DNA from: a virus | IMG/VR virus record: IMGVR_UViG_3300031933_000085 | Span: 1-32,434 of that record | Direction: 5' to 3' (one strand) | DNA length: 32,434 bases | Shown here: piece by piece, positions 5,537 to 32,434 of the stretch | Numbering within the stretch: position 1 is the stretch's first letter | Layout of the letters: each line of letters begins with the position of its first letter | Translations under genes and position numbers: made by a program | The notes under the pieces: model-generated | The model's database searches: none | Told to the model about the DNA's origin: nothing | Seen by the model: only the letters and a program-made list of their open reading frames with translations

Positions 5537-6575
5537 TGGCACGTATGCGTTTCTGTACCAAGGAGACAACCGCGTTACTATGCGTGACGAAATTGAAGCT
5601 GATAGTGTCGACAGCATCGTAACGGATCCGCCGTATGGCCTCGGCAAACAGCCGGACATGGTCGAAGTAATGCAGCACTGGCTAGCAGGTGACGACTATA
5701 AAGCCACAGGTGGTGGTTTTATGGGTAAAACTTGGGACAGCTTTGTGCCGGGGCCGAGCGTGTGGCGCGAAGCGTACCGTGTGCTGAAGCCCGGTGGCTA
5801 TTTAGTTGCTTTCGCGGGGTCCCGTACATATGACTTAATGTGTCTGGCGATACGTTTAGCAGGGTTTGAGATACGCGATCAACTCATGTGGATTTACGGC
5901 TCTGGTTTTCCCAAGTCGTTAGATGTGAGTAAAGCTATTGATAAACAGCTAGGTGCAGAGTTTACTAGCGAGCCTGCCAGCGGTGTGGGTTTTATGAACG
6001 AAAAAGGCACTGGCGGCTACAATGTTACAAAGAATAAACTCACACGTGTCGGTGATCCTTCTACCGCCGCCGCCGCATGGAACGGCTGGGGAACAGCATT
6101 AAAACCCGCACATGAGCCTATTGTATTGGCCCGTAAGCCACTCAACGGAACCGTAGCAAATAACGTGCTATCGCACGGTACTGGCGGGCTAAATATCGAT
6201 GCGTGCCGGATTGGTACAGATGAAAAGTTAGCTGGCGGCGCAGGAGGGCTATTGTCACACCAGCGGGATAGTAAGGAGTACCCCGCAGAAAATAGCTATG
6301 TACCTTCTGAACAAGGCCGCTGGCCAGCGAATGTAATGCACGACGGCAGTGACGAAGTTATTTCTATGTTTCCTAGTAACTCATCGCGTTTCTTCTACTG
6401 CGCTAAAGCCTCAAAGAAAGACCGCAACCGTGGCCTAGATGCTTTAGCTGATACTTCGCCCGAGGAACTAACGCATCGTAAAAGTGACTCAGCAGGCATC
6501 AATAATCCACGTGCCGGTGCGGGGCGTACCTCTGGCGCTAAAAATAGCCCCCTACAGTCAAACCAAACGATTTGA
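5520..6575 (+). CDS. DNA methyltransferase, N-terminal part up to a frameshift
   Basis: The 351-residue frame starts at an ATG 8 bases after a GGAGGG ribosome site. It shows the catalytic motif IV DPPYG (about residue 37-41), followed by a WREAYRVLKPGGYLVAF segment typical of amino-methyltransferases that act on adenine N6 or cytosine N4. The order, catalytic motif first and SAM-binding motif last, is that of the beta class. The target-recognition part occupies roughly residues 130-330. The frame ends prematurely at TGA 6573-6575 just before the region that should read HPTVKP; the rest of the enzyme continues in the -1 frame to 6745. Alone, this product lacks the SAM-binding FxGxG motif and is probably inactive. 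Modification of phage DNA to avoid host restriction is the usual role. Confidence 0.85.
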   Translation: MLFHDNGTYAFLYQGDNRVTMRDEIEADSVDSIVTDPPYGLGKQPDMVEVMQHWLAGDDYKATGGGFMGKTWDSFVPGPSVWREAYRVLKPGGYLVAFAGSRTYDLMCLAIRLAGFEIRDQLMWIYGSGFPKSLDVSKAIDKQLGAEFTSEPASGVGFMNEKGTGGYNVTKNKLTRVGDPSTAAAAWNGWGTALKPAHEPIVLARKPLNGTVANNVLSHGTGGLNIDACRIGTDEKLAGGAGGLLSHQRDSKEYPAENSYVPSEQGRWPANVMHDGSDEVISMFPSNSSRFFYCAKASKKDRNRGLDALADTSPEELTHRKSDSAGINNPRAGAGRTSGAKNSPLQSNQTI

Positions 6576-9813: not shown

Positions 9814-12331
9814 CCTGATAGTACCTCTCGTCATAGTTAATACATGTGACCTTGACGTTATCCACGTCGCTTGGCTCAAATGTCTGAACCAGCATCGCCA
9901 GTTTAGTACGCTGGTCATCCGTTGACAAGCTGTACTCCGTTTTATCGGCCAAATATCCGACATAAGGTGGTTCTGACGGAGCATATGCCAACACCACTGC
10001 TTCATCCGTGTCAGGATCGGCCGTTACAGGAATCCCCTCCAGCGAACCGTCACGTTTCGTGAGCACTATCGACCACGTGGCATCACCAATAGCTATTTCA
10101 TGCGGTTGTGACAGAAAATAACGCAGCCCATCTGTCTGATCGATGTACCCGTCAATACTGTTCTGTCGAGTATTATCGATTACATCGACACGTTGCCCTT
10201 TAGATAGCAGACGCGCCTTATCCATAGCAGTAAACACATGACTTATACGTTGGTATTTTAGCTTATTGTACTCACGCCACGCTCGGACCTCTGCAAACTG
10301 AGGCACGTTACAACCTTGCAGCGTTATTTGATTCGGATTCGTGGCGCTTTGGTCGGTAGGGATATAGATGGTGTCAGTGTCGCCGGTGTTCTCATTTTTA
10401 AATGTCAACTCAACACCATCATAATCTTTACTGTTTTTTAGCGACCGTGTCCGCCGTTCTTCTCCACCAGCACGCACAGGGAGTTTCGATCTGTGGCCAA
10501 ACTGCTGCACTGAGATACTTTGCGGCCCCTCCCACCAAAATTTTATAAGATTCCCCTCTTGGTACGCAGACATATTCGTGGCATCACAGATTAAGGCGAT
10601 GTGGTCCTCATATCTAAAGGTGTCATCGTCGAAGGTATATCCGACACGAATAGCATCGCGTGTGCCAAAATAGTCCACAATGGATTCTTGCAGTTCATAT
10701 AAACCCGCGTGGTCTATCGTAGCGGAGGTGCGTCTACCGATAAAAGGATCAGTGTGCATGGAGTACAGTACGTCCGCCACTTCATCACTCGCTATGTAGG
10801 TGCTATCTGGGCGCGTAATGTAACGAGTGCAGGCAAAGGATAACTTACGCTCCTTGACACGTAGCGCAGATTGTGTGGCCTTAGTTCTGGCAAGAATAGT
10901 AGTAACGTTGCCAAAATCTGCAACAGTTACTGAGTTAGCTAAAAATAAGTCACGCCATTTAATTTCGTCTACTACAGTACCGCTAAATTCAAAGTCCGTT
11001 TCTGTCATTCGGCGAACTTCGATAGAACAGTTAGTGTATGGGATCACATACTCTATGGTCACACCAACGGCATCCGTACCGTTTGGCGATATATATTCGT
11101 TGTACGCCGTAGTATTTGCAGGGTTATCAAGATCTGTAAACAGCACGTAGATGTGCATATCGAAATATTCGTATTGAGTGCCTTTCTTATAAAACCCGTT
11201 CTGAGCAACAATGTTTATCCAACACTTTTCAAATCCGGATACAGTAAAAGGGCCGACGGTGGTGGAAATGTCTTTTCCAATAGCGGGCAGAAACTCAACC
11301 AGCATCGTTCCTGGCTGCTCCGTTTCGTACCATAGGTCATTTGCTGAATCATACCAAACGCTTGTCGGAACAGCCGAGCCACCAGCACCGTAGTGAATCC
11401 ACGAACCACTGGCGCCGCTAACGTCAAGAACCAGATAATCGTCCCCTACAGCAGTAACAGTGTAGGAACCACTGCAGTCTGCGAGTTCATTATCTGGTGT
11501 CACAACCACGAAGTTATAAACGACACACGTATCACCAATAGCAAAAGAGTCACCGTAAAACGGCACAGTGGCATTTATAGAGTCTATACGCCCCGTAGAT
11601 CTCGCCAGAAAAGGCCCTGTGTCTTGGTTTTCATTAGGTGCGATTAACGTAGCACCGTCCACTTCATTGGCTTGTTCTACCGCATATAACGGATCTGTAA
11701 AAGTATCACCTATGGTGAGAAAAGGTGACCCCGAGTTTGGCGATGTGTAAGGATTGTAGAACATTGCAGCGGCACCATCGATGCGCGACAGTGGCGTGTC
11801 ACCATCAACGACAGTGGCTTCTTCGATATCAAGTTGTCCAACAGAAGCACATAGATACGATATTTCAAACTCTTGGTTACTTACGAAGCGTGTGTAATTC
11901 ATCCATAAATCTGGATAGCAAGCCGGTTCGCGCCCGCGAATATCGGGTAGCCGTTTATTAAGTCGTGGCTGGTTGCTACGACCCTGAAGCGCATTATTTG
12001 ATGATCTGTTAGCGTTAGCGTCGACTTCTGGGATTGTGGGAGTAAGCAGCAGAGTAGCAGCTACAGCTACGACAATAGCAATAATTACAGGGATCCACGT
12101 CTCTGGTCCAGCGGGTACCGCCGAAATATACCACATAGCGTCAGTATCTAATAGCTGCGCATCGGAAATATCAGTAACAGCCGAGTCCACAGAAATCTGT
12201 TCGTGCCAGAAATACAGCTTGTCATGTTTCGGTGCGTGATTTACGAGCCAGTCCGCCAGATGCTGCACAGTAACGGTATGCATCGTATCTGGGCACATTG
12301 GGCCGTCAGGGTAAAATTTAATAGTCGCCAT
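9797..12331 (-). CDS. Tail tip / host-specificity protein, J-like
   Basis: The 844-residue protein is the largest tail gene after the tape measure in transcription order and ends the tail module, the position of lambda gpJ. The N-terminal region holds a long hydrophobic stretch (WIPVIIAIVVAVAATLLLTP, about residues 80-98), a feature of tail-hub proteins of this type. It is followed by an RSNQPRLNKRLPDIRGREP segment reminiscent of the J family, and then beta-rich hub and fibronectin-like regions. It would form the central tail tip or baseplate hub and contact the host. A short 5' leader from 12332 separates it from the divergent + strand promoter of the 12438 gene. Confidence 0.75.
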   Translation of the reverse strand: MATIKFYPDGPMCPDTMHTVTVQHLADWLVNHAPKHDKLYFWHEQISVDSAVTDISDAQLLDTDAMWYISAVPAGPETWIPVIIAIVVAVAATLLLTPTIPEVDANANRSSNNALQGRSNQPRLNKRLPDIRGREPACYPDLWMNYTRFVSNQEFEISYLCASVGQLDIEEATVVDGDTPLSRIDGAAAMFYNPYTSPNSGSPFLTIGDTFTDPLYAVEQANEVDGATLIAPNENQDTGPFLARSTGRIDSINATVPFYGDSFAIGDTCVVYNFVVVTPDNELADCSGSYTVTAVGDDYLVLDVSGASGSWIHYGAGGSAVPTSVWYDSANDLWYETEQPGTMLVEFLPAIGKDISTTVGPFTVSGFEKCWINIVAQNGFYKKGTQYEYFDMHIYVLFTDLDNPANTTAYNEYISPNGTDAVGVTIEYVIPYTNCSIEVRRMTETDFEFSGTVVDEIKWRDLFLANSVTVADFGNVTTILARTKATQSALRVKERKLSFACTRYITRPDSTYIASDEVADVLYSMHTDPFIGRRTSATIDHAGLYELQESIVDYFGTRDAIRVGYTFDDDTFRYEDHIALICDATNMSAYQEGNLIKFWWEGPQSISVQQFGHRSKLPVRAGGEERRTRSLKNSKDYDGVELTFKNENTGDTDTIYIPTDQSATNPNQITLQGCNVPQFAEVRAWREYNKLKYQRISHVFTAMDKARLLSKGQRVDVIDNTRQNSIDGYIDQTDGLRYFLSQPHEIAIGDATWSIVLTKRDGSLEGIPVTADPDTDEAVVLAYAPSEPPYVGYLADKTEYSLSTDDQRTKLAMLVQTFEPSDVDNVKVTCINYDERYYQDDLSV

Positions 12332-12377: not shown

Positions 12378-12406
12378 TTGACAGCGTAGTGTTGCTATAG
12401 TAACCT
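12378..12406 (+). promoter_or_regulatory. Candidate promoter for the 12438-13312 island
   Basis: TTGACA at 12378-12383 matches the sigma70 -35 consensus perfectly. TAACCT at 12401-12406 is a weak -10 at 17-base spacing. A TATAGT at 12396-12401 lies too close for a standard promoter, but belongs to the TGCTATAGT motif shared with other + strand islands. The promoter lies 32 bases before the ATG at 12438, which has GGAG and AGGA ribosome-site matches. Confidence 0.5.
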
Positions 12407-13312: not shown

Positions 13313-13586
13313 CAACAATACCCACATGTAACCCCGTGCCGGTTCCATACCGGCACGTTATCATCTCTCCCATGTGGTCACGCCACGTACCAGCAAATTT
13401 ACCACGGCGCTCAAATTTATGCCGCAGCCAATACATAAACGTACGCGCCCATTCGTCGCCGTCGGTAAACTCGAAACCATAGTAATCAGCAACGGCGTGT
13501 GCACAAGTCCACGTAACAGGGTCATATGGTCGTCCGATTTTAAGTGTACTGACGATATAACCCCCCTGTGCGTGCAATCGTGCCAC
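13191..13586 (-). CDS. NlpC/P60-like tail tip peptidase
   Basis: The 131-residue product has the Cys of a papain-like NlpC/P60 or CHAP fold (WTCAHAVADYYG, about residue 28) and the His in GTGLHVGIVVSGG (about 87), followed by IYHAYR and a final RFYRYVG typical of phage tail peptidases like lambda gpK. The GTG start at 13586 has a weak AGG upstream and overlaps the previous gene by 47 bases. Such proteins cleave or bind peptidoglycan during tail tip assembly or DNA entry. Its 3' end overlaps the convergent small membrane-protein gene by 122 bases. Confidence 0.75.
   Translation of the reverse strand: MARLHAQGGYIVSTLKIGRPYDPVTWTCAHAVADYYGFEFTDGDEWARTFMYWLRHKFERRGKFAGTWRDHMGEMITCRYGTGTGLHVGIVVSGGIYHAYRAPGKSGGDTVVTGFAQMTAFHDVRFYRYVG
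13335..13357 (+). terminator. Possible terminator hairpin for the + strand island
   Basis: A perfect 8-bp stem CGTGCCGG/CCGGCACG with a 7-base loop lies 23 bases after the + strand stop, within the NlpC-like coding sequence. The following TTATCATCT is only weakly T-rich, so termination is uncertain. Confidence 0.4.
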
Positions 13587-14034
13587 GCTCGCCTGTTTTA
13601 CTCACGTTAGTAGCCTGTGGCGTCGCAGAGAAACCGATACCGTCAGGTTCGCTAGCAAACTCGCCAATTTCTAACGAGTAAGGCCCGTCTGCAACACTGA
13701 CATTATCATCCACATCAATGTAGTAACTATAAAAATTAGCTGTTACGGGAATTTCTGTATCAATCGGGATCTGGTCAAGATACGCACCAGCTACTTCGTT
13801 CATATCCTGCAGCACAACTTTAAATTCTTGTGACAGATTTTCGACGGTGCCGGGTTTCTCGACACGCATAGGTACATACTGAAACGTCCAGTTATTTACC
13901 GTGTCGGTAAACCCCGGGTGCCACGGCGTGATATACAGTGATTCAGTTAGTGCAGGGTGCGATAATATCACCGCATCGACCACTTGCTCCCCACGTGTGG
14001 CATTAACTAATATAGCTCTGGCCTGTTCAAGCAT
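13540..14034 (-). CDS. Minor tail protein, DUF1833-like
   Basis: The 164-residue protein starts MLEQARAILVNATRGEQVVDAVILSHPAL and carries a beta-rich region (WTFQYVPMRVEKPGTVENLSQEFKVVLQDMNE) like DUF1833 phage proteins, a family found between the tape measure and the NlpC-like gene. It would be part of the tail tip complex, in the position of lambda gpL. It shares one base with the upstream gene and overlaps the downstream NlpC-like gene by 47 bases. The family assignment is by pattern only. Confidence 0.65.
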   Translation of the reverse strand: MLEQARAILVNATRGEQVVDAVILSHPALTESLYITPWHPGFTDTVNNWTFQYVPMRVEKPGTVENLSQEFKVVLQDMNEVAGAYLDQIPIDTEIPVTANFYSYYIDVDDNVSVADGPYSLEIGEFASEPDGIGFSATPQATNVSKTGERGTIARTGGLYRQYT

Positions 14035-14516: not shown

Positions 14517-16843
14517 TATCGACGCCTCATATCGTACTGATCGCGCATGCTAGCATTAAAACGCGAGTTAGGGTTACGTGCTTCATTCGCCATAAGTTGC
14601 GGAGCTCGTGAATTAATTTCGTCGCGCACATCCTGAATTGTGACATACGTGTCACCATTAGTATCGCGCGTAGCGGTAGCAGTTACGCCAGAGCCATAGT
14701 TATTGACGTAAACATTGCCGCCTTCTGTGGATAGCGTACCGCCTCGGTTCATCGCTTCCAGCGCGGGACGATTACGGGCAGTGTCACGCGCATTAACGAC
14801 AAACTCGCCGTTGCTTAGGTTTGCAGGAATGCTATCACTAGTTCCGGTACCAGCACCTACAACATATCCACCAGTAGCAAAGTTAGATGATTGTACCGTA
14901 GAAATGATGCCGCCAAACGCTGAAGCCACGGTGGCATAGTTTGCCAGTTTCTGGTAAATAGTAAGCGCTGATGGGTCTGCTAGAGCCTGACCTAATGCTA
15001 CGGCTAGGTTTAACGAGCTCGCCGCAATAGCAAACGCTTTCTGTGCGCGCAAAGCGGTTTTATTCGCATTGTCCTGATTGCCTATGAATTGTCCGGCGAT
15101 TTGTGATAGCGCTTCAAAACCATTCGCAGTAGCAGATAGGGTGTTCTGCGTTTCAGTTAGTGCTAGGGCTTGTCGATCCCGAGACGCAGATTCGGCAACT
15201 TGTGTTTTTAGCGCCTCATAGTCCTGCTGTGACAGTACATCAGCATCCCGCGCTTTCTGTAATATTTCTAATCGTTGTGTTTCTTGCGCTTGTATTTGCT
15301 CTAACGGCGAACCTATGGACGTCTGTAACGACTGTACCTGTTTCCGTAACTGCTCCGCTTGCGCAGCTGCTTTAGTCGCCTCAGCTTGGTCATACAGCGC
15401 GGCGGCGGCGGCGGCGGCGGCGTCCCGTTGCTCCTGTGTAGCCCCTGAACCTAATTTCATCGCAGCGGCATACTGCGCTGCAGCTCTTGCTCCAAACTCC
15501 TGTTCGACACGCGCTGTGGCTAGTTGCTGATTTAGTGCCGCGATCTGTTTCTGGCGGTTAGCTTCTTCGGTCGCTGCACGTTTAGTGGCGGCTTCGGCGT
15601 CTTGGTCAGCCTGTTTTTTATCAGCTAGTGCTTTCTGTTCATCATAAAGCACACCAGCTAATCGGCGCGCTTCGGCGATCTGCTCAGCTGTAGCCTCTGT
15701 TCCTAGCGATAGCGCCGCTTGCATCTGTGCAGCTGCGCGTTCACCACGAATATGCTCAGTACGCACGGCGGCTATTTGCTGGCTTAACGATCTTAAAGAG
15801 GCGTTATGTGTCTCTGCAGTGCTGGTGTTATCTTTAAGCGAAGCATCGAAGTTATTGAGCATTTCAGTAAGGCGACGCTGCTTATCCGTGGCCTCTGTAA
15901 CTTGCGTATTCAACGCCACAATAGCGTTGACAAACTCAACTAATTTCTTATTCGGTTTATCTTGTGCTATTGCTAGATTAGTTGTTGATGTGGTTAGTTG
16001 TTGGAGGTCACGCGCTGCTCCAGATTTCTGAAACTGTGCGAATTGCAGCACTAACCCAGCAGCTTCTTTGCGGGTAATTTTAAACTGTTTCGCTAATCTA
16101 TCGGTGTTAGCTCCAAGTGCGGGAAACTCCGAGCCTCGGCCACGCGAGATCGATGCTAGAAACGCGATGGTGCGTCTGCCGCTTTCATTAGCAGCAGAGG
16201 TGATACTGTCAAGTTCATCTTTTGCATTTTTTAATGTGAACGTGCCGAAAGTACCAAGTATTTCCGTTGCTGATTTATTTGCGTTATCTAACGCAGCGCG
16301 CGCTTCAACTAATGCACGTGTTAGCTCTAGTTGTGCCGCGTCGCGCGAAACTCGGGCTAACTGTTCAATGCTGCCAGTTAAAACCGTAGTCCCCTGTGCT
16401 GTAGTGTCCACAACAGCATTCAGTGACTTTAATGCGTTTTCGAGGTCTTTTGTGGCGTTGACGTTTTGGTGGAAAATCTGATACGCAGCGCCCGCCACAG
16501 CTACTACTACCGAAAGACCAGCACCTAATAAGCCGAAGCCTTGTACTAATTGTGGGATCTGTTGTGATGCAGCACGGATACCATCAGTACCAGAAGCGAT
16601 CTGTACGAAGAAGTCACCTACTTGATATGAGGCGTTTTGAAACCCTGCTGTTAAAGCCTTATTCGCTTTAGTGGCAGCTGTGGTTCCTTTTACATACTGC
16701 CCGCCACTAACGTTACCAACATCAGCAATACTTTTTTCAGTACGATCCGCAGCTTTATTGAGGTCATTTAACGAACGGTTAACCGTCGCAGCGCCTTTCT
16801 GTACGCCGCTGGGGTCAAGTTCTGTTACTACGCGGATCGCCAT
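14516..16843 (-). CDS. Tail tape measure protein
   Basis: At 775 residues this is the long Ala/Gln-rich helical protein that sets tail length and lies just after the chaperone pair. A GGAG ribosome site precedes the ATG. A hydrophobic segment (about residues 93-122, LVQGFGLLGAGLSVVVAVAGAAYQIF) is followed by a long coiled region. Two related modules of about 57 residues occur near 353 and 436, both with the pattern LxQQxAxxRxExxxGxRAAAQxxAAxxLGxxAT, indicating an internal duplication. A (GCG)n run at about 15398-15422 codes for poly-Ala in the second module. The C-terminal segment contains GTGTSDSIPANLSNGEFVVNA, common near the end of lambda gpH-like proteins. Using about 0.15 nm per residue, the tail would be roughly 115 nm. 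Confidence 0.92.
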   Translation of the reverse strand: MAIRVVTELDPSGVQKGAATVNRSLNDLNKAADRTEKSIADVGNVSGGQYVKGTTAATKANKALTAGFQNASYQVGDFFVQIASGTDGIRAASQQIPQLVQGFGLLGAGLSVVVAVAGAAYQIFHQNVNATKDLENALKSLNAVVDTTAQGTTVLTGSIEQLARVSRDAAQLELTRALVEARAALDNANKSATEILGTFGTFTLKNAKDELDSITSAANESGRRTIAFLASISRGRGSEFPALGANTDRLAKQFKITRKEAAGLVLQFAQFQKSGAARDLQQLTTSTTNLAIAQDKPNKKLVEFVNAIVALNTQVTEATDKQRRLTEMLNNFDASLKDNTSTAETHNASLRSLSQQIAAVRTEHIRGERAAAQMQAALSLGTEATAEQIAEARRLAGVLYDEQKALADKKQADQDAEAATKRAATEEANRQKQIAALNQQLATARVEQEFGARAAAQYAAAMKLGSGATQEQRDAAAAAAAALYDQAEATKAAAQAEQLRKQVQSLQTSIGSPLEQIQAQETQRLEILQKARDADVLSQQDYEALKTQVAESASRDRQALALTETQNTLSATANGFEALSQIAGQFIGNQDNANKTALRAQKAFAIAASSLNLAVALGQALADPSALTIYQKLANYATVASAFGGIISTVQSSNFATGGYVVGAGTGTSDSIPANLSNGEFVVNARDTARNRPALEAMNRGGTLSTEGGNVYVNNYGSGVTATATRDTNGDTYVTIQDVRDEINSRAPQLMANEARNPNSRFNASMRDQYDMRRR

Positions 16844-17639: not shown

Positions 17640-17680
17640 TTGCGTGTGGGTGCGTAGTGGTGCTATAGTGACTATATAGT
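17640..17680 (+). promoter_or_regulatory. Candidate promoter with repeated TATAGT for the 17703-18213 island
   Basis: TTGCGT at 17640-17645 and TATAGT at 17664-17669 (18-base spacing) form a plausible sigma70 promoter. A second TATAGT lies at 17675-17680. TGCTATAGTGAC is shared with the promoter regions near 31955. An AAGGAAG ribosome site follows before the ATG at 17703. Confidence 0.55.
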
Positions 17681-18245: not shown

Positions 18246-19709
18246 CTACGCTGGCACATACCGGAACAGTGTGACCGACTGCGCATAGCCGAATGCCACA
18301 GAGCCGAATGCTTCGTTTTCCAGTGCAATTTCGACTTTATCATTCGTTGGAAACGACTTTTCACCGTTACCTAACGTGATCTCAGGCTGGTCTAGAACAA
18401 ACGCGCCCTCATTATTCTGCATCACCAATTCGAGGTTACAGGTTACGTTGTTACGTAGTGCCGAGGTAACTACTGAATCAGTGAATAACGTAGTCATCGT
18501 TTCGCCGATTTCGATATTACCGTAGTTTAGATCTGCGGCGCCCAGCACGCCCAATACGTTTTTAGGTGAAACGTTGTTGTTCACGTTGATCGTGGCATCA
18601 GTGAAATACGTGGTAACACCGTTCAAATCGACGTCACGAATGCGTAACCGCGCAATATCTTCGGAGGTATTGAATAGCTCATTAGCAACGAAATCAACGA
18701 ATGTACCTGGCTGACGAGTCAGTGACGCTTCAGTAACGTCATGAGCAACGCATTCGAAATCGAGTGTTGACTTATCGGTGATCGGCGTAGCCAATGCAAC
18801 GGTGTTAACCATAGCCCCTGTGGCGTACTCATAGCTGCGACCTGGTGGCAAGTCATAACCCGCTTCGATAGTGATGTGGTTAGGGTCGAAATCGGCATGG
18901 TTCACCGGAACATTACGACACCATAGGCCATAATAGATCCGAATTGTTTGAGCAGCACCGGCATCGGTAGCAACTACGCCGCTGTGGTTATCCAGTGTCA
19001 GCGATGCTGCGGTAATGTCACGTACACGTGCAAAACCGTTAAATTCGGCGTTGTCAAAACCATCGACGTACACATATGCACCTTCGAACAGCGGCAGTGT
19101 TGTAAAGTCACCCGCTGCGGTATCAAGTACCATAGTCGATGCAGTAGATGCTACTGAAATATCTGCTGCCGGATATTCGAAGCCACACTCATGCAGCGAT
19201 GTACCACCATTAGGTGTTTCAGCGACTAACCCAGATGCTGGGATGCTAGTGGCCGTGGCGGATGCACCAACGACTTTAACGCCATTATTTGCAGTGTCTG
19301 CAAAGCCACGCGCAATGACCAGAGTACCTTGCGGCAGCGCGCCGTTCGCATCGACGGTATATTCCGTAGCTGTTACTGCTGAAACGTCGTAGCCAAACTC
19401 ACCGGCAGCGGGGCCTTTCCAGACGGTGTACATCATAATTGGCGCCCAAAATGCCATAGCGTCCATTGTGGTGTCCATTGGGAACGCTGGCGATGCGGTG
19501 AGGTTCGTCACGGCACCTTTACGGCGCTGGCGGTCAAGCGAAATAGGTGAACGTGCCACACGCTCAAGCACTGCGGCAAAACTTGAAATGTCGTTAGGCT
19601 GCATGTAATACCAGACACTGTTAGCATCAGGGTTACAGCCTTTCGTTACAGCGAGTGACACTGCATTAGTATTCGACCCGATAGGATCGCAATTTACTGG
19701 AAAAGGCAT
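18246..19709 (-). CDS. Major tail tube protein
   Basis: The 487-residue protein precedes the tail chaperone genes and is followed by a strong terminator, as expected for an abundant virion protein. It starts MPFPVNCDPIGSNTNAVSL and contains a segment WYYMQPNDISSFAAVLERVARSPISLDRQRRKG that matches the N-terminal part of large phage tail tube proteins. The rest is beta-rich with several Thr/Val/Ala segments, consistent with a tube domain plus inserted Ig-like or surface domains (about residues 100-260). It is larger than many tube proteins, so it probably carries decoration on the tail surface. Confidence 0.8.
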   Translation of the reverse strand: MPFPVNCDPIGSNTNAVSLAVTKGCNPDANSVWYYMQPNDISSFAAVLERVARSPISLDRQRRKGAVTNLTASPAFPMDTTMDAMAFWAPIMMYTVWKGPAAGEFGYDVSAVTATEYTVDANGALPQGTLVIARGFADTANNGVKVVGASATATSIPASGLVAETPNGGTSLHECGFEYPAADISVASTASTMVLDTAAGDFTTLPLFEGAYVYVDGFDNAEFNGFARVRDITAASLTLDNHSGVVATDAGAAQTIRIYYGLWCRNVPVNHADFDPNHITIEAGYDLPPGRSYEYATGAMVNTVALATPITDKSTLDFECVAHDVTEASLTRQPGTFVDFVANELFNTSEDIARLRIRDVDLNGVTTYFTDATINVNNNVSPKNVLGVLGAADLNYGNIEIGETMTTLFTDSVVTSALRNNVTCNLELVMQNNEGAFVLDQPEITLGNGEKSFPTNDKVEIALENEAFGSVAFGYAQSVTLFRYVPA

Positions 19710-23919: not shown

Positions 23920-23948
23920 TTGACACTATGGCGGTATAGTGCAATAGT
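23920..23948 (+). promoter_or_regulatory. Candidate promoter with inverted repeat for the 23956 gene
   Basis: TTGACA (23920-23925) is a perfect -35; AATAGT (23943-23948) lies at 17-base spacing. Between them is an inverted repeat CACTAT-6-ATAGTG (23924-23929, 23936-23941), which could be an operator. If AATAGT is the -10, transcription would begin about at the ATG 23956, giving a leaderless or nearly leaderless mRNA. Confidence 0.55.
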
Positions 23949-23955
23949 GACTCGT

Positions 23956-25591: not shown

Positions 25592-26812
25592 TTACAGTTG
25601 TTCGTATAACTTAGCGCCAGCATCAGTAGCCATTACAGCTTCGGTCGCTTTTGCCATAGTTACGTTGTGTTCTTTGGCGTGGACTTTCACCATACCGTCA
25701 AACTCTTCTTGTGCTGACTTAGCCATACCATCACCGCCTGGTGTTGCATGTTGCTCAAACTGTGGCTTCATCGCAGCGTTACCAGCTTTCAATGCCGCGG
25801 TCAGTGTCTCAGCAACACCTTTGTCCATCTTAGCCACATCACGCAGCACAGCGGCTTTAGCCAGTGCGGTACCTGGTAGATACTGATAATCCGCTTCGGC
25901 GGTTTTAACGAAACCTTGCAGTTCCTGCTCGCCGCGCAGTTTCATCAGGTCTTCGTCTTGCGACTTCAGCATCTCAAAGACACCTGCGGGCAACGCGGAT
26001 TTAACCAGTGATACACCTTTCGAGGTGGTATAAGTTTCTTCGGTGGTTTTAAGTAAGTCCACAGTGGCGGTACGTTCATCGGCACTCATTTTCACGAATG
26101 CAGATTTATCGTCGTCGCTCAGTGTAGCGTAATGTGCTTTCTGGGCGTCGGTCATTACAGCGAGCGCCTGAAGCTCCTCAACGTTTACATTTTCTGGCAT
26201 GTCATTTACCTTTTTTAGTGAATCCGGCATATCCGCTTCGGACTTATCCGGGTAAGCCTTGAGCCAGGCGGCTCGTACTCGCGCCACAACCGCTTTACGG
26301 TCAGCAGCGGGAATTTCTACAGGGTTACCACGAAACCCCTCTGGTGAGAGTGCCGCAGCAGCCGCTGAAATATGTGCTGGTGTGTCGATGCGTAACTTCC
26401 AGCCACTTGGTTTTTCTTTATCTGGTGCGTAAGCGTACGCAGACGGATCGCTCGGTGCGGCTTTAGCTAACGTCATAATTGACATAGCAAATTCGCGCAG
26501 GTTCTGCTTAACTTCTTCCGCATTACCTTTTTTCATTGCGTCGCGGTTAGCGTCCCAGAGAGCATCTTGACTACGATAAAGATGGTCAAGCAAAGGCTCT
26601 AGCATTTCACGCGTGGATTCTTCAACCGCTTTAGTTTCCATAACCTCAGAAAACACAGCTTTAGCTAAATCCTGAAACTCATCAGTTTCTGGCGTGGCGT
26701 ATTTACGCATAGTTGCTACGCTCCCTTGTACGGCTGGTACAGTGACACCACTCAATTCACCAATTTTAATCGCTGTGGCGCGCTGTTTGTTTGTTTTACC
26801 ATCGAAACGCAT
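25592..26812 (-). CDS. Scaffold-like head morphogenesis protein with DUF6582-like segment
   Basis: The ATG at 26812 (MRFDGKTNKQRAT) shares one base with the protease stop and has a GGGAGG ribosome site about 10 bases upstream. The 406-residue product is helical, rich in Ala, Lys, Glu and Asp, as expected of scaffolds. Residues about 125-200 contain KLRIDTPAHISAAAAALSPEG and a DRKAVVARVRAAW region, similar to the HLPIHDAAHV...AKIRAA segment (DUF6582-like) often fused to phage prohead proteases or scaffolds. It would guide capsid assembly and be removed by the upstream protease. Confidence 0.75.
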   Translation of the reverse strand: MRFDGKTNKQRATAIKIGELSGVTVPAVQGSVATMRKYATPETDEFQDLAKAVFSEVMETKAVEESTREMLEPLLDHLYRSQDALWDANRDAMKKGNAEEVKQNLREFAMSIMTLAKAAPSDPSAYAYAPDKEKPSGWKLRIDTPAHISAAAAALSPEGFRGNPVEIPAADRKAVVARVRAAWLKAYPDKSEADMPDSLKKVNDMPENVNVEELQALAVMTDAQKAHYATLSDDDKSAFVKMSADERTATVDLLKTTEETYTTSKGVSLVKSALPAGVFEMLKSQDEDLMKLRGEQELQGFVKTAEADYQYLPGTALAKAAVLRDVAKMDKGVAETLTAALKAGNAAMKPQFEQHATPGGDGMAKSAQEEFDGMVKVHAKEHNVTMAKATEAVMATDAGAKLYEQL

Positions 26813-27213
26813 TATTCTACGTCCTCCCATGCTGCGCCGCCGCCGATACTAAAACCGGTAAAGTCGCCAGAATCAAATTTAGCCAGTGTCTCGTCATCTT
26901 CCACATACGCACCGACAGCAATACCTTCTTGACCGATAGGTTCAATACCTAGCGACTTCAGTACTTCGTCAAACATCGGGAAAATAAAGGGCACCATGCC
27001 ACGAGGCTCGCCAGCGTGCATCTGCTTGAGCATTCGAGTTCCTTTGGCAAATTCGAGCCACCCGTCAAGTGCAACAGATTTCGGAATAGATTGATTATCG
27101 GAATCGAACAGTTCCTCGCCGTTTTTAGTGACTACTTGACCCCAGCCAAAAACTAATCGGCGGTCAGTGTCAACTTTAGCGACAGGTACATACAGTTCGT
27201 TATATTGAGTCAT
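26812..27213 (-). CDS. Prohead protease, XkdF-like serine peptidase (S78-2 type)
   Basis: I chose ATG 27213 (MTQYNELYVPVAKVDTDRRLVFGW); an upstream extension to 27333 encodes a hydrophobic stretch unrelated to the family. The 133-residue protein matches the XkdF pattern: KVDTDRRLVFGWGQVV, KQMHAGEPRG with the likely catalytic His (about residue 66), GIAVGAYVEDDETLAKF and DFTGFSIGGG with the likely Ser (about 126). Such peptidases process scaffold and capsid proteins. It begins the capsid sub-operon and may be read from the promoter-like sequence at 27243-27272. Confidence 0.75.
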   Translation of the reverse strand: MTQYNELYVPVAKVDTDRRLVFGWGQVVTKNGEELFDSDNQSIPKSVALDGWLEFAKGTRMLKQMHAGEPRGMVPFIFPMFDEVLKSLGIEPIGQEGIAVGAYVEDDETLAKFDSGDFTGFSIGGGAAWEDVE

Positions 27214-27311: not shown

Positions 27312-27532
27312 CTGTCCGGACAGTGTCCGGCATGGAAAACCGTTATAATACGTTTAAAATCAATAAGTTGTCCGGTAAGTGTCCATGTATGCCCTTTATA
27401 GTTACTTTATAAATAATAAACATTAATGTTTATTATTTATGATCCGTTTTTATGATTTAAGGTGGACACCGGACAAGATACGGATTTATAAGGATTTTTC
27501 GGTGTTTTCGTGCCGGACAGTGTCATGGACGG
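27312..27532. repeat. Nested inverted repeat region around a 32-bp palindrome
   Basis: Four GTCCGG-containing sites surround the central palindrome in symmetric order. Outer pair: 27318-27335 (+) and 27532-27510 (-), sharing GACA(C/G)TGTCCGGCA(T/C)G. Inner pair: 27368-27387 (TTGTCCGGTAAGTGTCC, +) and 27476-27461 (TTGTCCGGTGTCCAC, -). The midpoints of the outer pair (about 27422), inner pair (about 27423) and palindrome (27424.5) agree within about 3 bases. The outer left site also contains the perfect 12-bp palindrome CTGTCCGGACAG (27312-27323). There is no gene here. It lies between divergent transcription units, so an operator array, origin or recombination site are all possible. Confidence 0.8.
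27409..27440. repeat. Perfect 32-bp AT-rich palindrome
   Basis: All 16 bases of each arm are complementary with no loop; only one C (27421) and one G (27428) interrupt A and T. The symmetric centre is CATTAATG at 27421-27428. Such a palindrome could extrude as a cruciform, unwind easily or bind a dimeric protein. Confidence 0.95.
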
Positions 27533-27587
27533 TCAAAAAAGTAACCGTTCTATATTACAGATAAGTTTGTTCTATAAAATAGAAACG

Positions 27588-27615
27588 TTGACATAGTAAC
27601 GAAGTAGTGTATATT
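27588..27615 (+). promoter_or_regulatory. Sigma70-like promoter for the 27649-28091 island
   Basis: TTGACA (27588-27593) and TATATT (27610-27615) are separated by 16 bases, the best promoter match in the window. GAGGAG and ATG 27649 follow. ATAGTAAC and TAGTGTAT in the spacer are related to the CTATAGTG motif of the other islands. Confidence 0.7.
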
Positions 27616-27648: not shown

Positions 27649-27834
27649 ATGAGAAAGTACAGTAAGCAGTATAAACGTCGAGTCAGCGCGTGGCTTCGTG
27701 ATGGTAAAGGTATTAACTGCCCATGGTGCGATACATTTTATAGTGTCAACCGCGTTTATTGCCCATACTGCCACCAACTAGAGGCGGAGGCATTTCTAGC
27801 AGCACATTTGCGTGACAATAGCTGCGCGCGTTAA
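27649..27834 (+). CDS. Small zinc-ribbon-like protein (61 aa), + strand island
   Basis: The ATG follows a GAGGAG ribosome site and a good promoter. The 61-residue product is basic at the N-terminus (MRKYSKQYKRRVSAWLRDG) and has two CxxC pairs, CPWC at about residues 24-27 and CPYC at about 38-41, in a typical single zinc-ribbon arrangement. It would probably bind nucleic acid or protein. No specific family is recognised. Confidence 0.7.
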   Translation: MRKYSKQYKRRVSAWLRDGKGINCPWCDTFYSVNRVYCPYCHQLEAEAFLAAHLRDNSCAR

Positions 27835-27848
27835 TAGAGGGTAAAACT

Positions 27849-28091
27849 GTGGAAAAGATGAAAAATGTTTTTGAGCTACCACTTAGTCAAAGTGACCATG
27901 ATACTCGGAAAGCAAAAGACGTGAATAACCAAGTAACGTTATACGCAGACGACCCTGAAGAAATTCTAGCAGCGATACGCGCAATTAACATGCACGACGA
28001 GCTAGTGGCTATGCTTATTCAGTTGCAAACAGAAGGTGGACTCGGTACTGCTCACCACAAACAAATCGATAAACTACTAAAACGCACCTAA
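27849..28091 (+). CDS. Hypothetical small protein (80 aa), + strand island
   Basis: The GTG at 27849 is preferred over ATG 27858 because GAGGG at 27837-27841 lies 7 bases before it. The product is soluble and helical in its C-terminal half (DPEEILAAIRAINMHDELVAMLIQLQ). The TAA stop overlaps the TAG stop of the convergent phosphoesterase gene by 4 bases, so no spacer remains between the two units. Function unknown. Confidence 0.65.
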   Translation: MEKMKNVFELPLSQSDHDTRKAKDVNNQVTLYADDPEEILAAIRAINMHDELVAMLIQLQTEGGLGTAHHKQIDKLLKRT

Positions 28092-29623
28092 CGCCACTGC
28101 TCGCCGCGACTAGTGACAATACACCGCTTGCCCGTCGGGTACGTAATAATGTGACTATTACTGTGCGCTGACGGGCCTTTCTCGTAACCTGCTTTCTCCT
28201 GCGATTTACCCGCCATAAATACGCCGTTAAATACCCCTGCTTGGTGACTGTGGCCTATATTATGCCTAACACCGGTACGGGCGATATTTTTAATGTTACC
28301 GCGTGATCCGTTCGGGCCGCGATCGCCATGGTTATCGTGACGAATACCGAAACGAGTAAATGACTCATCGCCACGCAGAAACTGCATGTGTGACGTATCT
28401 AAACCAAGCAGCTCCATAGCGCGGCCGAGTACCGACATGTTTTCACCGTCACGGATCGCTTTATAAACTTCGGTCTGTAGCTGCAAGAAAAACAATGCAT
28501 TCACCGGATCGCGGCGGTAATCCTGCTCCTTTAGCCACCGCGTTAATGCCAGGTCATGGTTCGACTCTACCGCAACGACTTTACAGAAGTCCCGCGCAAA
28601 CCCGGCAAGACCCTGATAGGTAAGCCGTACTTCATCTGCTACGGATTCGGTGCCACGCGCAAACATACGGTACAAATAGTGGGGGTCATTCATATTGTGG
28701 TGATTGCGGCGCCGCTGATCGTAACTGTCGTGGCCAAACAGATACTCCGGTCGCAGTGTGTCAATCATATCGTGGATGCCACGCAGTACAGGATGTGACA
28801 CATTATCAAAATGTAAGTCGCCTGGTGTCAGCGCACCAATCCTGTTTCCCGTTGTCCAGCCACTCGGCGTAAAAATAACGTCTAGATCCTGAATGTGGCC
28901 AGTCTCAGAGTCGGCACACAATTGCCGAGTGAACCATTTACCGTCGCTGTCGACATGAACGTACAGTGCAGAGAAAACATGATCCCATTCGGCACGCTGT
29001 CCTGCTTTAGCCTGAATGTAATTTCGTTGCGACAGCGCACCAGTAGTATAAATGTGTTTCGCATCGATGCCGGGTGGTGTCGCACAGGCGCGTAACTGCA
29101 ACTTAGCGTGTGGAATAATAAGAGAAGCGCTGCCGGCGTAACTATCGAGACCTGATGTTGGGTCTACTGCGGTAGGTAGGATATTGAAATTGCCACACCA
29201 GTATAAATCTGGTGCTAGCTGCTGCAGGTCGTCACACACGTAGTTTTTAATCTGCGGGTCGAACCAGTAACGGTCGATGCCTTGTTTATCTTTCCAGTGC
29301 GCGTTTTTACGGTCATATAAGAAACGACTTACCACCAGCTCCGCATCGAAATATTTAGTGGCCTGTTTCAGCGTGGCCCACATTTCGGGGTGTATCTGCG
29401 TCTCATTCTGCACCGCCATGAAAATGAAGTCCGAACCGGAGCGTTTCGGAATTTGCTTGAACATGTCCGTTTTAGTGCCTGACAGTACAGGCTCGGCTTT
29501 TTCGGCACGTTTTAAGCTGCGTTGAAGTGACTGGTGATGTACGCCTAATGCTTTCGCTGCGGCGCGTTGTGAACCGTATTTATCAACGGCGGCACGGAAC
29601 TCTTCTAGACGGGATTTAGGCAC
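28088..29623 (-). CDS. HTH plus metallophosphoesterase protein, T5 A1-like
   Basis: The GTG at 29623 has GAGG 7 bases upstream. The 511-residue protein starts with a helix-turn-helix (residues about 5-40, RAAVDKYGSQRAAAKALGVHH) and carries the motifs of a calcineurin-like metallophosphoesterase: GDLHF (about 267), an ESNHD version of GNHD (about 354), HDNHGDRGPNGSRG (about 430-443) and GHSH (about 457-460). This HTH-phosphoesterase arrangement is shared with phage proteins related to T5 A1, which is needed for second-step DNA transfer and host DNA degradation; in many phages it is simply annotated as DNA transfer protein. The active-site residues appear intact. It is the second gene of the head module here. 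Confidence 0.8.
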   Translation of the reverse strand: MPKSRLEEFRAAVDKYGSQRAAAKALGVHHQSLQRSLKRAEKAEPVLSGTKTDMFKQIPKRSGSDFIFMAVQNETQIHPEMWATLKQATKYFDAELVVSRFLYDRKNAHWKDKQGIDRYWFDPQIKNYVCDDLQQLAPDLYWCGNFNILPTAVDPTSGLDSYAGSASLIIPHAKLQLRACATPPGIDAKHIYTTGALSQRNYIQAKAGQRAEWDHVFSALYVHVDSDGKWFTRQLCADSETGHIQDLDVIFTPSGWTTGNRIGALTPGDLHFDNVSHPVLRGIHDMIDTLRPEYLFGHDSYDQRRRNHHNMNDPHYLYRMFARGTESVADEVRLTYQGLAGFARDFCKVVAVESNHDLALTRWLKEQDYRRDPVNALFFLQLQTEVYKAIRDGENMSVLGRAMELLGLDTSHMQFLRGDESFTRFGIRHDNHGDRGPNGSRGNIKNIARTGVRHNIGHSHQAGVFNGVFMAGKSQEKAGYEKGPSAHSNSHIITYPTGKRCIVTSRGEQWR

Positions 29624-31949: not shown

Positions 31950-31985
31950 TTGCTATAGTGACAGTGTAGCGCTATAGTGTCAACT
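31950..31985. promoter_or_regulatory. Divergent promoter region with CTATAGTG motifs
   Basis: On the + strand TTGCTA (31950-31955) and TATAGT (31973-31978) are separated by 17 bases. On the - strand TTGACA (31982-31977) and CACTAT (31959-31954) are 17 bases apart, reading toward 31918. GCTATAGTG occurs twice as a direct repeat 19 bases apart. The two promoters overlap, so one regulatory protein could control both directions. Confidence 0.55.
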
Positions 31986-32018: not shown

Positions 32019-32434
32019 ATGACCGTTTCATATAAAGGCTTTAACCAACAGTTACAATGTCGTGACTACCAATTTGAAATTGGTAAAACATTTACTCATG
32101 AAGGAACTGTAGAACCCTGCTCTTCAGGATTCCACGCTTGCGAGATGCCTTTGGCAACTTTTGGTTACTATGCACCTGCTGCTTCACGTTATTGTACTGT
32201 GGAGCAGAAGGGTGTGATCAAATCAGAAAGTGACAAAAAAGTTTCTTCGGTACTTACAGTTAAAGCAGAAATAGGTTTACCAGGACTAATTAAAGCACAA
32301 ATTGAGTGGGTGAAGAACAATCTAATAAAAGAAGATGAAGTGAGCGACACTGGCTACCAGTCCGCTGCGTCAAACACTGGCTACCAGTCCGCTGCGTCAA
32401 ACACTGGTGACTATTCCGCTGCGTCAAACACTGG
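32019..32434 (+). CDS. DUF7666-like protein with 9-residue repeats (3' truncated by window)
   Basis: The ATG follows an AAGGA ribosome site and the frame runs open to the window end. The first about 60 residues match the DUF7666 pattern, with CRDYQFEIGKTFTHEGTV and PCSSGFHACEMPL followed by YYAPAASRY. From about residue 110 the protein consists of 9-residue repeats (NTGYQSAAS and variants) that should form a beta-solenoid or repeat scaffold. Repeat proteins of this kind occur in many phages and mobile elements; the function is unknown. The transcript likely begins at the promoter near 31973. Confidence 0.7.
   Translation, partial: MTVSYKGFNQQLQCRDYQFEIGKTFTHEGTVEPCSSGFHACEMPLATFGYYAPAASRYCTVEQKGVIKSESDKKVSSVLTVKAEIGLPGLIKAQIEWVKNNLIKEDEVSDTGYQSAASNTGYQSAASNTGDYSAASNT
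32346..32434 (+). repeat. 27-bp tandem repeat in the DUF7666-like gene
   Basis: Three near-identical 27-base units and a partial fourth code for (D/N)TGYQSAAS. The first two contain the inverted repeat ACTGG-3-CCAGT, so each unit could form a short hairpin; the third differs (GGTGACTATTCC). The array continues beyond the window. Confidence 0.9.

Follow-up and report, generated by a model that had tools for sequence, protein, structure and literature searches.

Introduction

Replicators with well-defined cis-acting parts provide the closest described parallels to the locus discussed here. In plasmid iteron theta origins and in the origin of phage lambda, initiator repeats are combined with an AT-rich unwinding region and an IHF site. 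The satellite phage P4 has a two-site replicator, ori1/crr, which is served by the alpha primase-helicase, i.e. two cis regions carry initiator repeats together with an AT-rich region. The core origins of the SV40 and papillomavirus type use SF3 helicases as initiators; inverted G+C-rich sites flank a palindrome with an AT tract, and the helicases assemble outward. In other contexts, lambda cosB consists of terminase-binding repeats plus IHF, and the sites of N15-type phages have a G+C-rich alternating centre.

It is instructive to compare these systems with an intergenic element found in a viral contig of 32,434 nucleotides (IMG/VR record IMGVR_UViG_3300031933_000085; the whole stretch is termed the window). 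Like the plasmid and lambda origins, the element contains short repeats clustered at one noncoding locus, an easily melted AT-rich region beside them and a match to the IHF consensus; DnaA boxes, which are not essential in all iteron-type origins, are absent from it. It differs from these origins in that the repeats are inverted around the core and do not form one tandem array, and in that no initiator gene lies alongside. The P4 replicator resembles what we see in the relatives of this phage, which have an SF3-type primase-helicase; however, P4 crr is not mirror-symmetric, and near matches to the type I iteron of P4, GGTGAACA, are no more frequent in the window than expected by chance (25 versus 24.8). 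Compared to the SV40 and papillomavirus origins, which work in a similar manner, the sites in the window are spaced much farther apart, and we claim no homology.

Results

The IMG/VR record is a linear fragment. Both ends run into short repeats, which are coding (positions 1-70 and 32340-32434) and probably broke the assembly. The capsid genes resemble those of Enterobacter phage Mulvp2, Pseudomonas phage KPP23 and Salmonella phage 9NA (45-56% identity for the protease), and the polymerase resembles those of Scuro, AeroV_348, SppYZU01 and Vibrio phage 1.009.O (42-47%); the collections searched contained no close relative. The element is situated between two divergent units. The leftward capsid operon begins with an XkdF-like protease (26812-27213, minus strand) that is 33-56% identical to its counterparts in 9NA-type phages. 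The corresponding proteins are termed DNA methyltransferase in PHROG 1530 and in several GenBank records and XkdF-like protease in others, and the former name looks like a propagated error. The leftward ORF enters the span at 27333, but its start is placed near 27213 by homology, and the left end of the element is about 100 bp upstream of this start. On the other side, the rightward unit begins at 27649, downstream of a strong sigma-70-like promoter (TTGACA-16-TATATT, 27588-27615, plus strand, 11 of the 12 consensus bases) that is outside the element. Its two small ORFs have no known relatives, and searches through them gave nothing useful; they adjoin a gene (28088-29623) for a T5 A1-like DNA transfer protein. 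A preliminary description had called the span free of genes, and there is indeed no convincing gene inside; Rfam and tRNA scans gave no matches.

The element (27312-27545) is a diverged inverted repeat centred on a perfect 32-bp palindrome, ATAAATAATAAACATT/AATGTTTATTATTTAT (27409-27440). The palindrome is exact, as was claimed previously, and no other perfect palindrome of the window exceeds 14 bp, the length of the next longest; from composition alone, about 3e-5 perfect palindromes of 32 bp are expected per 32 kb. The heptamer TGTCCGG occurs 8 times, both strands counted, as compared to a mean of 2.9 in shuffled versions of the whole window, and 6 of the 8 copies fall within 207 bp, between 27313 and 27519. 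The other two, at 5652 and 15090, are each within a predicted gene. The outer left site TGTCCGGACAGTGTCCGG (27313-27330) contains a perfect odd dyad, CCGGACA-G-TGTCCGG (27316-27330), and an even dyad, TGTCCGGACA (27313-27322); in the arm-to-arm alignment it is homologous to its mirror, the outer right site CCGGACAGTGTCATGGACGG (27513-27532). The inner left site TGTCCGGTAAGTGTCCAT (27369-27386) is likewise mirrored, and aligned, by the inner right site TGGACACCGGACA (27463-27475). The nested pairs were correctly described as sharing a centre: taking the sites as four 15-bp dyads, the midpoints are 27421.5 (outer) and 27428 (inner), the centre of the palindrome being 27424.5, and four randomly placed sites give midpoints this concordant in 1.3% of trials.

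The symmetry goes further than originally described, since the flanks also align as a diverged inverted repeat. With the palindrome left out (about 27313-27386 versus 27463-27532), the inverted-repeat SW score is 38, while dinucleotide-shuffled flanks give a mean of 14.9 (sd 2.4). As none of the 500 shuffles reached 38, the element is one diverged inverted repeat with arms of roughly 110 bp, rather than four unrelated sites. The order from the palindrome centre outward is the same on both sides, i.e. TGGACA, CCGGACA, a second CCGGACA and a TGTC element; on either side the distance of TGGACA from the centre is exactly 38.5 bp, and the inner and outer CCGGACA are 45 bp apart in one arm and 44 bp apart in the other. 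It is this arm homology that carries the weight, because short AT-rich symmetry is common: for the same reason the palindrome of the window scores only 5 of 60 in a composition-controlled symmetry test. We did not accept the ungapped symmetry rank by itself as a measure, since shuffled AT-rich gaps score similarly. After composition control, most gaps, including those between the MuF and protease genes of the relatives G002 and G003, show no significant palindromic symmetry in the AT core by itself.

In a nearest-neighbour scan of the 32-kb contig, the AT-rich core (27381-27460) has the lowest stability of all 80-bp duplexes, and the least stable 50-bp and 100-bp segments are found here as well. 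The only match to the IHF consensus WATCAANNNNTTR in the 32-kb window, AATCAATAAGTTG (27358-27370, plus strand), lies inside the element and shares two bases with the inner left site; according to a Markov control, a match would fall in this element by chance in 2.7% of cases. The nearest relaxed DnaA box match, TTTTCCACA, is at 27848. GC skew does not switch at the site, nor at the equivalent position in Mulvp2. The TATAAT noted earlier inside the left arm is present on the plus strand at 27344-27349, but its mirrored TATAAA on the minus strand had been placed one base off and is at 27490-27485. No second copy of the element was found in the window, and no target-site duplication was seen by eye.

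Conservation in related phages had been suggested as a check, and its outcome is divided: the position and the design of the element are conserved, but the sequence is not. The TGTCCGG array is found in none of the relatives, the DNA of the region has only short chance matches to phages and plasmids, and a search of IMG/VR with the palindrome core returned a single match, a different hairpin between other genes. On the other hand, the MuF-protease gap of 9NA-type siphophages is divergent and contains an AT-rich core beside lineage-specific repeats. The least stable segment of 9NA, Carvaje (30 kb examined) and KarinMuster_Bas82 lies in this gap, as does the second least stable one of the IMG/VR genome G004 and of Mulvp2. 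In another relative (L011), a near-perfect 53-bp hairpin with 25-nt arms (92%) is located at 5803-5855, and the protease ORF follows about 55 bp downstream.

A comparison of the gaps within each genome revealed that the AT core recurs once per genome, before the small terminase gene. The duplicated cores are found in G004 (53508-53800 with 37939-38241, 88.5% over 305 nt), Bas82 (13549-13655 with 53263-53371, 91.7% over 109 nt), G003 (10466-10526 with 48742-48801, 88.9% over 63 nt) and 9NA (16039-16106 with 12-81, 83% over 71 nt); in G002 the sharing is weak and covers 25 nt only (84%). The adjacent repeats can likewise be confined to the two gaps. All 9 copies of the 9NA repeat TGTTATNTGNAAC are in the two gaps (7 on the terminase side and 2 on the protease side), as are all 5 copies of the G004 repeat TTAATCYCA (4 and 1 on these two sides, respectively). 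In G002, all three DnaA boxes, TTATCCACA/TGTGGATAA, lie inside the terminase-side gap, clustered within 50 bp, which was seen in 0 of 4000 Markov controls, and they adjoin the AT core and two IHF matches. In the gap that corresponds to that of the window, G002 has two IHF matches (p 0.001) and G003 has one (p 0.03).

The loci of 9NA, Bas82 and G004 are thus like the element of the window in their place in the divergent MuF-protease gap, in their least-stable AT core and in the short repeats next to it. They are unlike it in the sequences of core and repeats, and the perfect palindrome with its mirror arrangement is particular to the window. As in P4, two cis loci sharing repeats are present in 9NA, G004, G003 and Bas82, whereas the contig of the window contains one. 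The paired loci of 9NA, Bas82 and G004 are not annotated in the records examined, and we found neither a description of the paired-locus design nor a paper on the origins of this phage type in the literature searched; the genome announcement of 9NA states that molecular detail on its lifestyle is lacking (PMC4153490). The earlier remark that the genome is without a known dedicated origin of this design was too strong, as its relatives have comparable loci, unmarked in the annotations examined.

A divergent gap is also found in the phages that share the polymerase. SppYZU01, AeroV_348, Vibrio phage 1.009.O and Scuro each contain one such gap of 400-490 bp on the terminase side, and it harbours the least stable segment of the genome. 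Inverted or iterated repeats of differing sequence flank it in the first three (CCCCCGTTTA/TAAACGGGGG, TGTAGTCG/CGACTACA plus three 31-bp repeats, GTGCCCC arrays), and Scuro has weak repeats only. KPP23 contains an imperfect palindrome of about 520 bp (40308-40825), co-centred at 40566.5 without indels (z 8.1), in an intergenic region of 865 bp (40227-41090). Both arms carry GTCCGGAC, and the lowest duplex stability in the 47 kb examined is found here. The KPP23 palindrome resembles the element of the window in being intergenic, in its co-centred nested inverted repeats and in its instability, and differs from it in its length, in its TAAAACGAA repeats and in lying between genes of the same direction.

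Discussion

There are several ways to explain the element, and three of them, a replication origin, an operator array and a protelomerase or recombinase target, had been listed in the preliminary description. The relatives favour the first, because an AT-melting core, iteron-like sites and an IHF consensus are accompanied by DnaA boxes in one relative and by two loci per genome; the operator array comes next in probability. We consider it somewhat probable that the element acts in cis in the replication of a virulent 9NA-type siphophage, as a replicator. In this model the mirrored TGTCCGG/CCGGACA sites would be bound by an initiator of the phage, and IHF may introduce a bend next to the inner left site; the AT-rich palindromic core would open or extrude, and helicases would be loaded outward from it in both directions. 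Also in favour are the unstable divergent gaps of the phages that share the polymerase and the TGTCCGG clusters that several unrelated phages have in or beside replication genes. The absence of a DnaA box from the element, of a GC-skew switch at the site and of the TGTCCGG array from all relatives counts against it. The window, a 32-kb fragment, contains no initiator, primase or SF3 domain and no DUF5906 match; the candidate initiator is suggested by the relatives examined, whose primase-helicases carry SF3-type (D5/DUF5906/VapE) domains. The anatomy, the homology of the arms, the instability, the conserved position and design and the pairing of loci in the relatives are observed; that proteins bind, that the core melts, that the site acts as an origin, which protein initiates and that a partner locus exists are inferred.

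The pairing in the relatives suggests that the element may be one of two such loci in its genome. Since the contig is a fragment, only one is seen, and we predict a second TGTCCGG element beyond the contig, ahead of the small terminase gene. More tentatively, we propose that 9NA-type phages possess a two-locus replicator, of which the window would carry the form whose TGTCCGG sites are placed symmetrically on both sides of the perfect 32-bp palindrome. The full array and AT core would precede the terminase gene and a smaller copy the protease gene, and repeats and core would be replaced in each lineage together with the initiator; we hold this extension to be possible, with less confidence than the replicator role itself. 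If it is true, the repeats and the core of a replicator are replaced in full, with their location and pairing retained. The comparison has yielded exact paired candidate loci in phages of laboratory hosts (Salmonella LT2 for 9NA and E. coli for Bas82), therefore the question is now one for direct experiment.

The main rival explanation is that the element is the transcriptional control region of the capsid operon, which we regard as rather unlikely, though it deserves serious attention. A phage regulator bound to the TGTCCGG dyads would switch the leftward protease-capsid promoter and perhaps the promoter of the rightward small genes, with looping across the palindrome. The position of the element between divergent units and close to the protease start agrees with this explanation, and two weak promoter-like sites on the minus strand (27324-27374, consensus matches) use the CGGACA of the left-arm sites as a -35-like hexamer (CGGACA-18-TATTAT at 27374-27345 and CGGACA-16-TATCAT at 27329-27302). 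KPP23 provides a further argument, as 19 of its 25 TGTCCGG copies are intergenic versus 14% expected (47 kb examined), and TGTCCGGAC(A) is dispersed over several promoter spacers, often between a TTGAC -35 and a -10 (sites at 18471, 25547, 28621, 32705, 35922, 36512, 36608 and 41752). Two of these sites, 36512 and 36608, are mirror-placed within a divergent gap. Such dispersal is not seen in the window, where both TGTCCGG copies outside the array are intragenic, the other promoters carry a different element, CTATAGTGAC, and the strong rightward promoter has no part in the array. The duplicated cores of G004, G003 and 9NA share the same orientation relative to the downstream late gene, as a control region might; however, the late genes of 9NA form at least six rightward blocks and the core with its repeats precedes just two of them, which disfavours a general late promoter. 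Nor would a late promoter be expected to have three DnaA boxes in a tandem cluster, as found in G002. The two roles, replicator and transcriptional control, could be combined in one element.

A packaging or terminase recognition site (pac/cosB-like), with sites bound by the small terminase and an IHF bend, is very unlikely. The partner locus of the relatives is directly upstream of the small terminase gene, and 9NA is known for headful packaging from a pac site, the relatives being virulent pac phages (PMC4153490). But pac sites are normally found at a single place and need no melting core, and the locus of the window is in the protease gap, which in the relatives is far from the terminase genes. 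Still less credible is a miniature inverted-repeat transposon or another chance insertion: the 220-bp element has long imperfect terminal inverted repeats, but we rejected this reading because there are no further copies and a comparable element, an AT core, occupies the same place in many relatives. Least probable of all is a protelomerase or site-specific recombinase target, for although the perfect central palindrome with flanking inverted sites recalls telRL-type targets, the alternating G+C-rich centre that N15-type sites have is missing from the core, the relatives are virulent, no protelomerase (ResT-TelK_cat) or tyrosine recombinase model matches the fragment, and no Phage_integrase match in the surrounding 32 kb provides the neighbouring integrase gene of an attP.

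A few minor observations concern the repeats themselves. The TGTCCGG array was also considered as a general origin marker and rejected as such. In several unrelated phages TGTCCGG clusters occur within or adjoining replication-initiator, primase or helicase genes, and other arrays in G+C-rich contigs are near tail-fibre or endolysin genes; given these mixed locations, the motif alone proves nothing. Intragenic CCGGACA/TGTCCGG clusters are present at four loci (L118 2131-2179, L124 12370-12439, L122 1606-1822 and L095 1244-1283); the genes of the last three match replication-initiation families, and the clusters encode peptides like SGQCPD. The window has its own dispersed repeat: GCTATAGTGAC-like sites lie upstream of rightward ORFs at 12394-12404, 17662-17672, 23941-23951 and 31952-31981, with TTGACA-like hexamers ahead in two cases, and with up to 2 mismatches there are 25 matches in the window versus 9 expected, so they are likely a dispersed early-promoter element of this phage. 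In 9NA (L174/L175/L006) and Bas82 (L177/L178), TGTAATCCGTCAAGAATTATTTTAA occurs in about a dozen or more copies per genome, many of them ahead of small leftward genes, as a dispersed early-promoter family.
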